40,149 nt of DNA from an uncultured Pirellulaceae bacterium (lineage in GTDB: Bacteria > Planctomycetota > Planctomycetia > Pirellulales > Pirellulaceae), in the NCBI GenBank assembly GCA_938003615.1, contig CALKXO010000258.1, positions 1 to 40,149 of the forward strand. Reading direction: 5' to 3'. Positions 22,335 to 27,047 of the stretch are shown here, piece after piece. The first letter of the stretch is position 1. Every line of letters begins with the position of its first letter. The position numbers and the translations under genes are program-made. The notes beneath the pieces are model-generated. The model did no database searches. It saw nothing but the letters and a program-made list of their open reading frames with translations, and was not told where the DNA came from.

Positions 22335-24476
22335 CTACCCTACGTCGCTGATCGAAAGGGCGCGGCCGTATCTGGCGAAAACTAGTTGTCGCAAACGGGA
22401 GTAGGTTGCGTTTTGCAAGTCCGGGTCAGCATCGATCAACTTTCGCGCGTCTTCCCGCGCACGCACTAAGACTTCTTCGTCCCTGACCAGATCGGCGATC
22501 ATCAATGGAGGAAAACCGCTTTGCTGCGTACTGAACAGATTGCCCGGACCGCGAATCTGTAAGTCAATCTCCGCCAATTCAAACCCGCTATCGGTTTCTG
22601 AAAATGCCGTCAGCCGTTGATTGGATTCCGGATCGTCGCTGGAGGCAAACACACAGACGAACCCCGGATGCTGTCCACGACAGACACGACCGCGCAACTG
22701 GTGTAGCTGGGAGAGCCCAAATCGCTCGGCAGATTCGATTGTCATCACGGTTGCGTTACCCACATCGATACCAACTTCCACCACGGTTGTCGATACGAGG
22801 ACCTGTGTCTTGCCATTGGCAAAATCGGCCATCGCCGCGTCCTTTTGCTCGGCCGTCTGCCGGCCGTGCAGCAGATCGACACGAAAGTCACTAAACGGCC
22901 CGTTGGCCAGCGACTCAAACATGCGCTCGGCACTGCTCAACTGCTCGTCATCATCGCCCTCAACCAGCGGAGCAATCACAAACGCTTGCCGCCCCTCACG
23001 CAATTTCTTGCTGACAAACGCCCACCATTTTTCGCGACTTTCTTCTTTACCCAGATAGGTGTTCACTTTCTGGCCGATGCCGCTGCTGCGTTTAAGCGTC
23101 GACACATCCAGATCACCAAACAGCGTCATCGAGATCGTTCGGGGAATTGGCGTCGCTGTCATCACCAAGTAGTGCGGATCGAATCCAGATTGTTTCAGTG
23201 TGGCGCGTTGTTTGACCCCAAATTTGTGTTGTTCGTCGATGACGACCAGCCCCAGCTGTTTAAATGGAACCTTGGATGCGACGATAGCTTGCGTGCCAAT
23301 GACAATATCGACTTCGCCATTTTCAATGCGCTTCGCCGTTTCTTTGCGTGCCTTCCCTTTTACGCCGCCAGTCCATAGTGCAAAACGGACGCGCGTATTA
23401 CTCAGCAGTTTCTGGATGGTGTTGAAATGTTGGTTGGCCAGCACCGCAGTTGGCGCCATCAGTGCGGCTTGATGACCATGGGCGACTGCCAGCAGCATCG
23501 CGGAAACGGCCACGACCGTTTTTCCACTTCCGACCTCACCGTGAAGCAACCGGTTCATCGGCCAAGGCTGATTCATGTCGGCCGCAATTTCGGTCAATGC
23601 CTGTGATTGTGTGTCAGTCAGCTCAAACGGCAGTCGTCCAAGAATTCGAGCGCGGATCTTGGGCGTCATCTCGATTTCAGGCGCTTTGTTTTCGGCTCGA
23701 ATGCGATGTCGCCGAATCGACAACGCTAGCTGCAGAATGAACAGCTCCTGATAAACCAGTCGGGCTCGCGCCGATTCGACCTGTTCTTGATTTTTTGGAG
23801 CGTGGATCTGGCGGATTGCATCGGAGATTCCACACACGTCCAGACTTTTCCGCAATTCATCAGGAAAGGCCTCCGTTACTATGTCGGCGCATTGCTCGAC
23901 GACGGCACCTGCGATCTTGCGCATTTGTTTCTGGTTGATACCGTCAGTCAATTTGTATACCGGCATCAGACACTGCTGCTGTTGGACCGAATCTTCGGTG
24001 TCTAGCCAAGTAACTTTGGGGTGGTTCATCTGGAACCGACCGCCTTGCCATTTGGCTTTTCCCTGAAACATTACTTTTTGACCGGGCCAGAACTTGCGCA
24101 TCAGGAACTGCTGGTTGAACCAGACCGCGCGCAGATACCTGTCCTCCTGCTTGATCAAGACATAGCAAATGTGCACACCCGATCGGCCAATCTGTTGATC
24201 GACGTCATCGACGACTCCTACGACGTTAGCCAATTGCTCGTTGGCCATTTCGCCAAGGTGATGCAGTTGCGTGAAGTCCTGATAACTGCGTGGGAAGAAG
24301 AATAGGACATCCGCGGCGTTTCGCAGGTGAAGTTTCTCCAGCATTTCAGCCCGGGCTGGCCCAACGTCTTTGAGAAATTGGATCGGCTGCGTCAGCAACT
24401 CCATCGGCGACCGCTGGTCAGCAGCTTCTGCTGGCGAGGCAGGGTTGGGGGGCGGTTTGGAAGACGCGTCTGACAT
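22335..24476 (-). CDS. recG: ATP-dependent DNA helicase RecG
   Basis: LLHGEVGSGKTVVAVSAML, VIDEQHKFGVKQR, VMTATPIPRTISMTLFGDLDVS, VSTTVVEVGIDVGNATVMTIESAERFGLSQLHQLRGRVCRG. Confidence 0.97.
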   Translation of the reverse strand: MSDASSKPPPNPASPAEAADQRSPMELLTQPIQFLKDVGPARAEMLEKLHLRNAADVLFFFPRSYQDFTQLHHLGEMANEQLANVVGVVDDVDQQIGRSGVHICYVLIKQEDRYLRAVWFNQQFLMRKFWPGQKVMFQGKAKWQGGRFQMNHPKVTWLDTEDSVQQQQCLMPVYKLTDGINQKQMRKIAGAVVEQCADIVTEAFPDELRKSLDVCGISDAIRQIHAPKNQEQVESARARLVYQELFILQLALSIRRHRIRAENKAPEIEMTPKIRARILGRLPFELTDTQSQALTEIAADMNQPWPMNRLLHGEVGSGKTVVAVSAMLLAVAHGHQAALMAPTAVLANQHFNTIQKLLSNTRVRFALWTGGVKGKARKETAKRIENGEVDIVIGTQAIVASKVPFKQLGLVVIDEQHKFGVKQRATLKQSGFDPHYLVMTATPIPRTISMTLFGDLDVSTLKRSSGIGQKVNTYLGKEESREKWWAFVSKKLREGRQAFVIAPLVEGDDDEQLSSAERMFESLANGPFSDFRVDLLHGRQTAEQKDAAMADFANGKTQVLVSTTVVEVGIDVGNATVMTIESAERFGLSQLHQLRGRVCRGQHPGFVCVFASSDDPESNQRLTAFSETDSGFELAEIDLQIRGPGNLFSTQQSGFPPLMIADLVRDEEVLVRAREDARKLIDADPDLQNATYSRLRQLVFARYGRALSISDVG

Positions 24477-24641
24477 GCCATCATTCTATGGCAACTTACT
24501 ACACGACGAAATCAGCAGATTGAACTTCTTGCTTGCCTGCTGTCTTGGTGAACTCAATAGTTTCTATGAGCTACGTCGTCCATAATGTTCCTAGCATTTT
24601 GTTACGTGAAATTTTAAAGGCAGTCGAAATTACTTCTACTT

Positions 24642-24833
24642 CTACTTCTCGCTTGACACTATTTTTGTTTTACACCGACCACCTTTTGAAGAAACGTCTC
24701 GAGGTGTCAATACCTTTCCTCGCATACTGTCACGTAGAACCGTTTGCTTCCATTTTGGCCATTTCGAAAAAGTGATTTCAGCTTTTGCAAGCTTTGCTCT
24801 CAAATCATTGGTTGTCATCATGCTATTTTCCAT
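24642..24833 (-). CDS. Small hypothetical protein, last gene of the deaminase island
   Basis: 63 aa MENSMMTTNDLRAKLAKAEITFSKWPKWKQTVLRDSMRGKVLTPRDVSSKG...; start overlaps the stop of the deaminase ORF by 11 nt, suggesting translational coupling. Confidence 0.6.
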   Translation of the reverse strand: MENSMMTTNDLRAKLAKAEITFSKWPKWKQTVLRDSMRGKVLTPRDVSSKGGRCKTKIVSSEK

Positions 24834-26066
24834 TCCTTGGTTCTAAAAGATCTTGGTAGATTTGACTTGCTTCAAACTCTAAATCCAAATAAGAACTGGG
24901 TAGCATTTGTAGACGAAGTTGTGATTCTTCGATATGCCATTCTTTTTTCACACCGGTTTCTTTTTCTTTCCGTGTCATTTTGTACGAAGATCCATGACGC
25001 ATTGAAAATAAGTCAAAGAACTTTCGCGGTCCTACTCCGACAAATGGCTCAAAACAAACTTTATCATATTCAAAGTCATCTGGTTCGACTTTTGCGATTG
25101 AATCGGTATGAAACTCAAATGCTTTGCTTTTAGCGTAAGGTTCAATGTAGACGACGCGATTAATCCCGACAGCTACGATGTGCTTCGCACAATTGTGGCA
25201 CGGGAAAGTCGTAGAGTAAAGAGTAGTGCCAACGGTACCGATGCCGTTTCTAGCACACGAGAGCATTGCTTCCATCTCGGCATGTACAACACGACCGTAC
25301 TCCGTTAGGTCCGCAATAGAACTCGATTCAAGCAAAGTTAAAAGCTCATCACGTTCAATCCCTGAATAATTGTTGAGAACCAAATCCGAACCATGCGTTC
25401 CAAGTCACAATCTAGCCGCGAAAGATCTTTGGTGCTGTGGACGAAAAAATCAGCCTTCTGAAATGAGTTGCGTACCCTCTGGCCGTAATCTTCTTTCTCT
25501 TCGCCTGCATCACGCGCAATCAACTTTTCCGCCGATTCGCGGTCCATGTTTTCATGATATGGTCCACATAGATTGTCTATCCGATCTTCTTCGGTTTCGT
25601 ACACTCCAACCAGAACAAACCCGTGCGGGTAGGTGGCTCGCAAGAAGTCAATCTCTTCCGGCCGTTTAATTGAGTCAATAACGAAAGCGGACTTAAAACT
25701 GGGAACCTTCTGTGTCGTGGTTGGGCCAACTTTAGCCTCGTCTCGATTTGCGAAAATCACAGCCGCCGCTCCACATGCAAGTACGGCATTGCCACCATGG
25801 AGTCCATCAACAGATTTGGCTGACTCTCTCGCCTCATTCCCTGCCTTGATTAATCTATCGTAGCGATCGAATCTATTTAATTCAGAAACTTCAACCTCAA
25901 CCAAATCAGGAATTACGTCTCGAGAGAGCTTAATTTCTTTGACGCAATATCCAGTACTTTCAACATGTTTTTTCAGAACATGCTTGACACCTTTGAGGTT
26001 CGTGCCAATTGGACCAACCAAACCAATGACTAGTTCAGTGTTTCCACTAATGTTTTGAATTGCCAT
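24823..26066 (-). pseudogene. AvcD/DCD-type anti-phage deoxycytidylate deaminase, split: N-terminal NTPase-like ORF (25338..26066) and C-terminal deaminase half (24823..25383)
   Basis: N-terminal ORF: ELVIGLVGPIGTNLKGV, DRYDRLIKAGNEARE, FVIDSIKRPEEIDFLRATYPHGFVLVGVYE, ARDAGEEKEDYGQRVRNSFQKADFFV. C-terminal ORF: EYGRVVHAEMEAMLSCARNG...LYSTTFPCHNCAKHIVAVGINRVVYIEPYAKSKAFEFHTDSI (HAE and PCxxC zinc motifs). Different frames, 46-nt overlap; the stretch expected between them is missing. Confidence 0.8.
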
Positions 26067-26237
26067 GTTGTTTCGTTGCTCTTTTTTCCAATCCCGACGG
26101 ACGAAGAGTCGGGTGAGACAGATATTTGGACAACTACCGAATTGTTAGAGGATGGCAAAAGCCCCGCGTGGTTTCAAACTAAATTTTCATGCCTTGTTTT
26201 GGTCCTAGCAATCCAGCGAAGCGAAAATGCCCTATTC

Positions 26238-27047
26238 TCAGCCGTTAATTGCTGCCATCATCTCTTTGGCGAATTCTGTGACGTCGTCGATGACTTCTTG
26301 TCGGCTTTCGCTGTCTTCTTCGACCGAAGCAATTCGTCGCACGATTGCTGAACCGACGATCATCCCGTCGGCAACTTCCTTGAGAGCGACCGCATGTTTG
26401 GGCTGGCTGATGCCGAAGCCGACGCAGATTGGCAGGTCCGTCTGCGTCTTTAGCCAACGTAAATTCTCAATCAACTCTGGCGGCAACTCGTTACGCTCGC
26501 CAGTAATTCCAGCGATCGATACGTAGTAGATAAACCCGCTTGCCTGTTTGGCGATTTCGATAGCGCGATCCCGGTCGGTCGTCGGCGTGATCATTTGAAT
26601 CAGGCTGAAGTCGAGGGCGCGGCACTTTTCAGCAAACACGGCTGATTCGTCGACCGGCATGTCGGGAACGATCGCTCCGGAGATTCCAGAGGCGATGGCG
26701 TTTTTTAAATAGTTGTCCATGCCTTGGCGGTAGATGATGGCGTAGCTGACCATCGATACGATGGGCATCTTTAGCTTTGGTGTAATCGCTGCCGTCATGT
26801 CGAGAATGGATTCTAGCTTGATCTTTTTGTTCAAGGCGCGCGTGTAAGAAGCCTGAATGACGGGGCCGTCGGCGATGGGGTCGCTGTAGGGGATGCCCAG
26901 TTCAGCCAAGTGGCATCCGGCTTCATCAAGCGACTCAAGCAGCGCGCTGCTAAATTCGACGTCGGGATCGCCGGCAGTGATAAACGGCATGAATGCCTTT
27001 TTGCCCTCGGACTTTAGTTGAGCGAATAGATCGTCGATTGCGGACAT
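26238..27047 (-). CDS. trpA: Tryptophan synthase alpha chain
   Basis: FMPFITAGDPD, HLAELGIPYSDPIADGPVIQASYTRAL, GAIVPDMPVDE, YYVSIAGITGERNELP, CVGFGISQPKHA. Confidence 0.97.
   Translation of the reverse strand: MSAIDDLFAQLKSEGKKAFMPFITAGDPDVEFSSALLESLDEAGCHLAELGIPYSDPIADGPVIQASYTRALNKKIKLESILDMTAAITPKLKMPIVSMVSYAIIYRQGMDNYLKNAIASGISGAIVPDMPVDESAVFAEKCRALDFSLIQMITPTTDRDRAIEIAKQASGFIYYVSIAGITGERNELPPELIENLRWLKTQTDLPICVGFGISQPKHAVALKEVADGMIVGSAIVRRIASVEEDSESRQEVIDDVTEFAKEMMAAING

Follow-up and report, generated by a model that had tools for sequence, protein, structure and literature searches.

A probable AvcD-type anti-phage deaminase pseudogene, with an intact small gene behind it, between trpA and recG of an uncultured Pirellulaceae bacterium

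Gene content of the locus

The window analysed here is a 40,149-nt stretch of DNA from an uncultured Pirellulaceae bacterium (assembly GCA_938003615.1, contig CALKXO010000258.1). Between two core genes it carries an inserted interval with two overlapping ORFs, assigned to avcD (AvcD-type anti-phage dCTP/dCMP deaminase), and a small ORF:

26238-27047, reverse strand: trpA, flanking core gene
24477-26237, no strand: inserted interval between trpA and recG, 1761 bp, delimited by comparison with related species and GC content
25338-26066, reverse strand: ORF1, 5' part of avcD, P-loop kinase-like (NTPase) half, 242 aa, assigned by profile matches
25371-25377, reverse strand: deletion junction, with ~295 nt absent relative to the intact homologue L026 plus a frame change, located by anchor distances and alignment
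24823-25383, reverse strand: ORF2, 3' part of avcD, deaminase remnant, 186 aa, assigned by profile matches
24642-24833, reverse strand: small ORF, 58-63 aa, with a WPKWK core; downstream neighbour of avcD and an overlooked third part of the same operon
22335-24476, reverse strand: recG, flanking core gene

The trpA-recG junction in related genomes

The GC content of the inserted interval is about 39-47% versus 49-60% in the flanks, and comparison with related genomes showed that the junction is empty in two species and holds other cargo in two more. In the empty species (G008 and G011; junction loci L137 and L110), trpA and recG are directly adjacent, with a gap of roughly 65-110 bp. The junction of G001 (L134, 1581-4643) holds a GmrSD_N (DUF262) protein (PADLOC PDC-M55C, E 2e-50) and a HipA-like kinase, and that of G002 (L135, 212-1053) holds one ORF with no Pfam match, which is read here as RAYT-like because of the motif MPNHAHVLV and the palindromes on either side. 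The two core genes do not sit side by side in more distant congeners. Among close species, three carry a different cargo each at the trpA-recG junction and two carry none, which marks it as a small variable site of defence type.

The deaminase gene was found in none of 27 congeners, which, together with the direct adjacency of trpA and recG in G008 and G011, points to a recent acquisition of avcD. Around the insertion, a search for transposon ends or flanking repeats returned only short, chance-like repeats, the REP-like palindrome of G002 is absent from the window, and no sigma-70 promoter or terminator patterns were detected within the inserted interval. The original prediction placed the deaminase in an island between recG and trpA; the insertion at this position is borne out, although it is a single-gene insertion of 1761 bp, and its third, small ORF had been missed.

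Two ORFs matching opposite ends of one avcD gene

ORF1 and ORF2, both present as predicted together with the motifs quoted for them, overlap by 46 nt in different frames. In the PADLOC dCTPase profile (PDLC02373), ORF1 matches positions 152-336 (E 8e-52) and ORF2 positions 424-548 (E 1e-60). Similarly, in the NCBIfam model NF041025 'anti-phage dCTP deaminase' (437 positions), ORF1 covers positions 1-212, so that the N-terminal P-loop kinase-like domain is present, and ORF2 covers positions 316-434. The NF041025 scores are 151 bits for ORF1, 168 bits for ORF2 and 453 bits for L026, an intact homologue from an uncultured Pirellulaceae bacterium and the closest intact relative (51% identity in the N half and 64% in the C half); the curated cut-off of 400 bits applies to one chain and is reached by neither ORF of the window. 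ORF2 keeps the zinc-binding motifs HAEM and PCHNC, with Pfam PF00383 at positions 48-101, and TTG is the sole start codon on offer. The homology of ORF1 stops at about residue 230 (base 25377), after which 12 frameshifted residues follow. Judging from these matches, the two ORFs are complementary ends of one avcD gene, in agreement with the AvcD/DCD identity proposed for the split gene. Thus, the window matches AvcD (NF041025; PADLOC dCTPase; AvcID of Vibrio) in its two domains, their order and the zinc motifs, but its copy, in contrast to that family (NF041025), is broken by a frameshifting internal deletion.

An internal deletion removes conserved parts of the deaminase fold

In the window, 44 nt lie between the anchors on both sides of the junction, which are in different frames, whereas in the homologues the distance is 294-489 nt within one frame (339 nt in L026). 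Relative to L026, the loss amounts to ~295 nt (98-100 residues), which is not a multiple of three, and the frame changes at the junction, so that the two AvcD domains are not in one reading frame. The NTPase half stops at ...RIWF (L026 residue 230), and the deaminase picks up near L026 residue 332. The missing segment is real relative to all homologues, although at ~98-100 residues it is not the 'roughly 100 or more' first estimated.

To describe what the segment contains, we used an alignment of 35 intact members, in which a column was taken as conserved at at least 90%, and an AlphaFold2 model of intact L026 (mean pLDDT 89, pTM 0.88). The lost stretch holds 25 conserved columns, 18 of them invariant, and all 25 are gone from the window; outside the lost stretch, 71 of 71 conserved columns are unchanged. 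The best solved neighbours of the L026 model are dCMP deaminases for one domain and the adenylate-kinase-like proteins 3h0k and 3lw7 for the other. In this model, the lost stretch comprises a helix (239-251), two strands (262-267 and 270-276) and a further, long helix (312-331). The model places alpha1, beta1 and beta2 of the deaminase fold in the missing piece, consistent with the predicted loss of its first strands; these elements, as well as SADLSRQVGA and GAN..P, are absent from the window, leaving the deaminase core incomplete.

Broken copies of avcD in other genomes

In 96 of 103 homologous loci, a set in which some loci are duplicates, fragments at contig ends or shorter matches to the deaminase alone, the family matches lie within one ORF. 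The remaining broken family loci (L054, L066, L078, L089, L091, L102 and L105) carry stops, frameshifts or deletions. One of them, L054 of Photorhabdus australis, resembles the window in combining an internal deletion with a frame change, but the lesions of all seven are located elsewhere in the gene, and none equals the split in the window. These loci, some of which may be assembly errors, suggest that the avcD gene is often lost.

Weighing alternative explanations

The original prediction had left room for a divergent two-polypeptide version of the system, in which the NTPase and the deaminase would be separate subunits. The 46-nt overlap of the ORFs, as coupled genes can show, and the retention of every conserved residue outside the gap in both ORFs would fit such an arrangement. 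However, the deaminase piece lacks alpha1-beta1-beta2 and the 18 invariant residues of the deaminase core, the second ORF has only a TTG start, and the same two-ORF split was absent from ~90 homologous loci, none of which shares this layout or lacks the segment. A two-subunit AvcD, which we dropped because the split is absent from these loci, is therefore highly improbable. Even less credence can be given to programmed frameshifting that would still decode the gene into one shortened chain: the same overlap of the two frames would accommodate it, but inspection of the sequence by eye showed no classical slippery heptamer at the overlap, and even a perfect frameshift would yield a product in which the core of the deaminase fold is still missing.

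An assembly or strain-mixture artefact, in which case the avcD of the organism would be intact, is unlikely, although it deserves more weight than either of these. The genome is fragmented and probably metagenome-derived, the gene has no second lesion and its conserved positions are undecayed, and two of the other broken loci, L102 and L105, which have frameshift-only breaks, both come from metagenome assemblies. On the other hand, a clean 295-nt loss within a unique gene is untypical of an assembly error, a similar internal deletion is seen in a cultured isolate (L054), and no repeat was found at the junction when the contig was searched, albeit a repeat copy would have vanished together with the segment.

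The reading that we favour, and consider probable, is that the window gene is a pseudogene of an AvcD-type deaminase, with an intact small accessory gene behind it, inserted between trpA and recG. Under this reading, a single out-of-frame deletion of ~295 nt would have taken out the domain junction together with alpha1, beta1 and beta2 of the deaminase fold. Translation would then yield the NTPase half extended by a 12-residue tail; the second product would at best be a weakly started deaminase remnant, unable to form the substrate site. The remnant keeps the zinc motifs, but with the first helix, two strands and the GAN..P loop lost it should be inactive; we infer that activity has been lost, and the window copy is predicted to be most likely dead. 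A search of the genome (532 contigs, 87% complete) found neither an intact copy nor the missing piece elsewhere; the only family pieces were the two fragments, all remaining hits matching generic deaminases over short stretches.

Since 71 of about 428 codons are conserved and none of these has changed, fewer than ~18 amino-acid changes would have occurred since inactivation (a rough 95% bound). So few changes point to either a recent deletion or an assembly artefact, and the pristine state of the rest of the gene fits either. With one lesion, the conserved residues outside it kept and neither an intact copy nor the missing piece in the genome, the predicted recently inactivated defence gene remains the favoured explanation, and the date of inactivation would accordingly be recent.

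A conserved small ORF downstream of avcD

The small ORF at 24642-24833 begins at the avcD stop, with an ATG 1 nt past it, and is intact behind the broken gene. ORFs with a V..WPxWK+ core also stand immediately downstream of avcD at L026, L038, L036, L057, L207 and about 50 other loci. A locus of the avcD family was testable if its sequence ran on for at least 200 nt past the gene; of the 83 such loci, 57, from across phyla, have the WPxW motif on the same strand within the first 250 nt downstream, whereas the opposite strand has it in 1 of 83 and ~0.15 would be expected in shuffled sequence. An HMM search added L003, L010 and, more weakly, L012. At L003 (2105-2248, reverse strand), the microprotein gene is inverted, on the opposite strand to avcD and still adjacent to it, which suggests that the microprotein is an independent unit kept next to the deaminase. 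On the avcD tree, the microprotein occurs on most branches, in a scattered pattern with gaps.

The ORF looks protein-coding, given a dN/dS of about 0.40 in its Photorhabdus copies. Its counterpart in E. coli P4-like elements, annotated 'hypothetical protein' (WP_000021256.1), shares place, size and the WPxWK core with the window ORF and is divergent outside the core. None of the curated Pfam, NCBIfam and PADLOC models matched the small ORF, which is covered by PHROG 38465 (function unknown); a likeness to the Pfam villin headpiece (E 0.006) was below the cut-off and was dropped. Structure prediction gives it a helix-WP-helix shape and a disordered tail (mean pLDDT 72, pTM 0.37). The microprotein was undescribed in our literature search, the coverage of which did not extend to the two founding AvcD papers, so that an earlier mention is possible.

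To assess how closely the microprotein is tied to avcD, we searched larger genome sets. Of 297 genomes from the order, 9 encode the microprotein, and in 8 of them it lies beside avcD; the ninth (G293) has two copies on a short contig that also carries a VapC-like PIN-domain gene, with a microprotein directly downstream of that gene (L189, 222-879). Every candidate was scored in four gammaproteobacterial genomes, and there the sole match adjoins avcD. In 250 Pseudomonas genomes, 5 of 8 matches are beside avcD and 3 of 8 have no avcD nearby; copies away from avcD are undercounted in the larger sets, because only part of the candidates was scored at first and the neighbours of avcD had served to build the profile. 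In view of the PIN/VapC-like neighbour in one planctomycete and the three Pseudomonas matches, exclusivity to avcD was dropped as an option.

Implications for AvcD systems

In intact AvcD, one chain carries a P-loop kinase-like domain and, after it, a deaminase domain; upon infection the enzyme turns dCTP/dCMP into dUTP/dUMP, starving phage replication (PMC10511110). In Vibrio, the phage shuts off transcription, the RNA antitoxin AvcI is lost, and AvcD deaminates dCTP/dCMP (PMC10511110). We take it that intact relatives of the window gene work as such deaminases. As for the RNA antitoxin AvcI, which lies next to avcD in the AvcID type III toxin-antitoxin system, no RNA of this kind was recognised in the window: an Rfam scan, in which AvcI had no model, returned tRNA only, and blastn of the upstream regions of planctomycete homologues revealed no conserved DNA beyond the coding start.

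The product of the small ORF has the look of a microprotein that accompanies AvcD operons as a conserved accessory, and we infer a role for it in these systems. On balance, we lean towards the reading that AvcD-type systems of many phyla are two-protein operons, in which the deaminase is accompanied by a dedicated helix-WPxWK-helix microprotein of 45-70 aa, translated just after it, that would control or assist the enzyme by acting, for instance, as a protein inhibitor or a sensor; in the window, this partner would have stayed intact behind a broken deaminase.

The broken gene is a further example of a costly defence enzyme quickly gained and lost at a variable core-gene junction. More novelty lies in the downstream microprotein, which is worth following: the AvcID papers describe an RNA antitoxin, and most avcD loci studied here also encode a small downstream protein with no curated name. 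If this microprotein regulates AvcD, it would bear on how such deaminases stay silent and get triggered.
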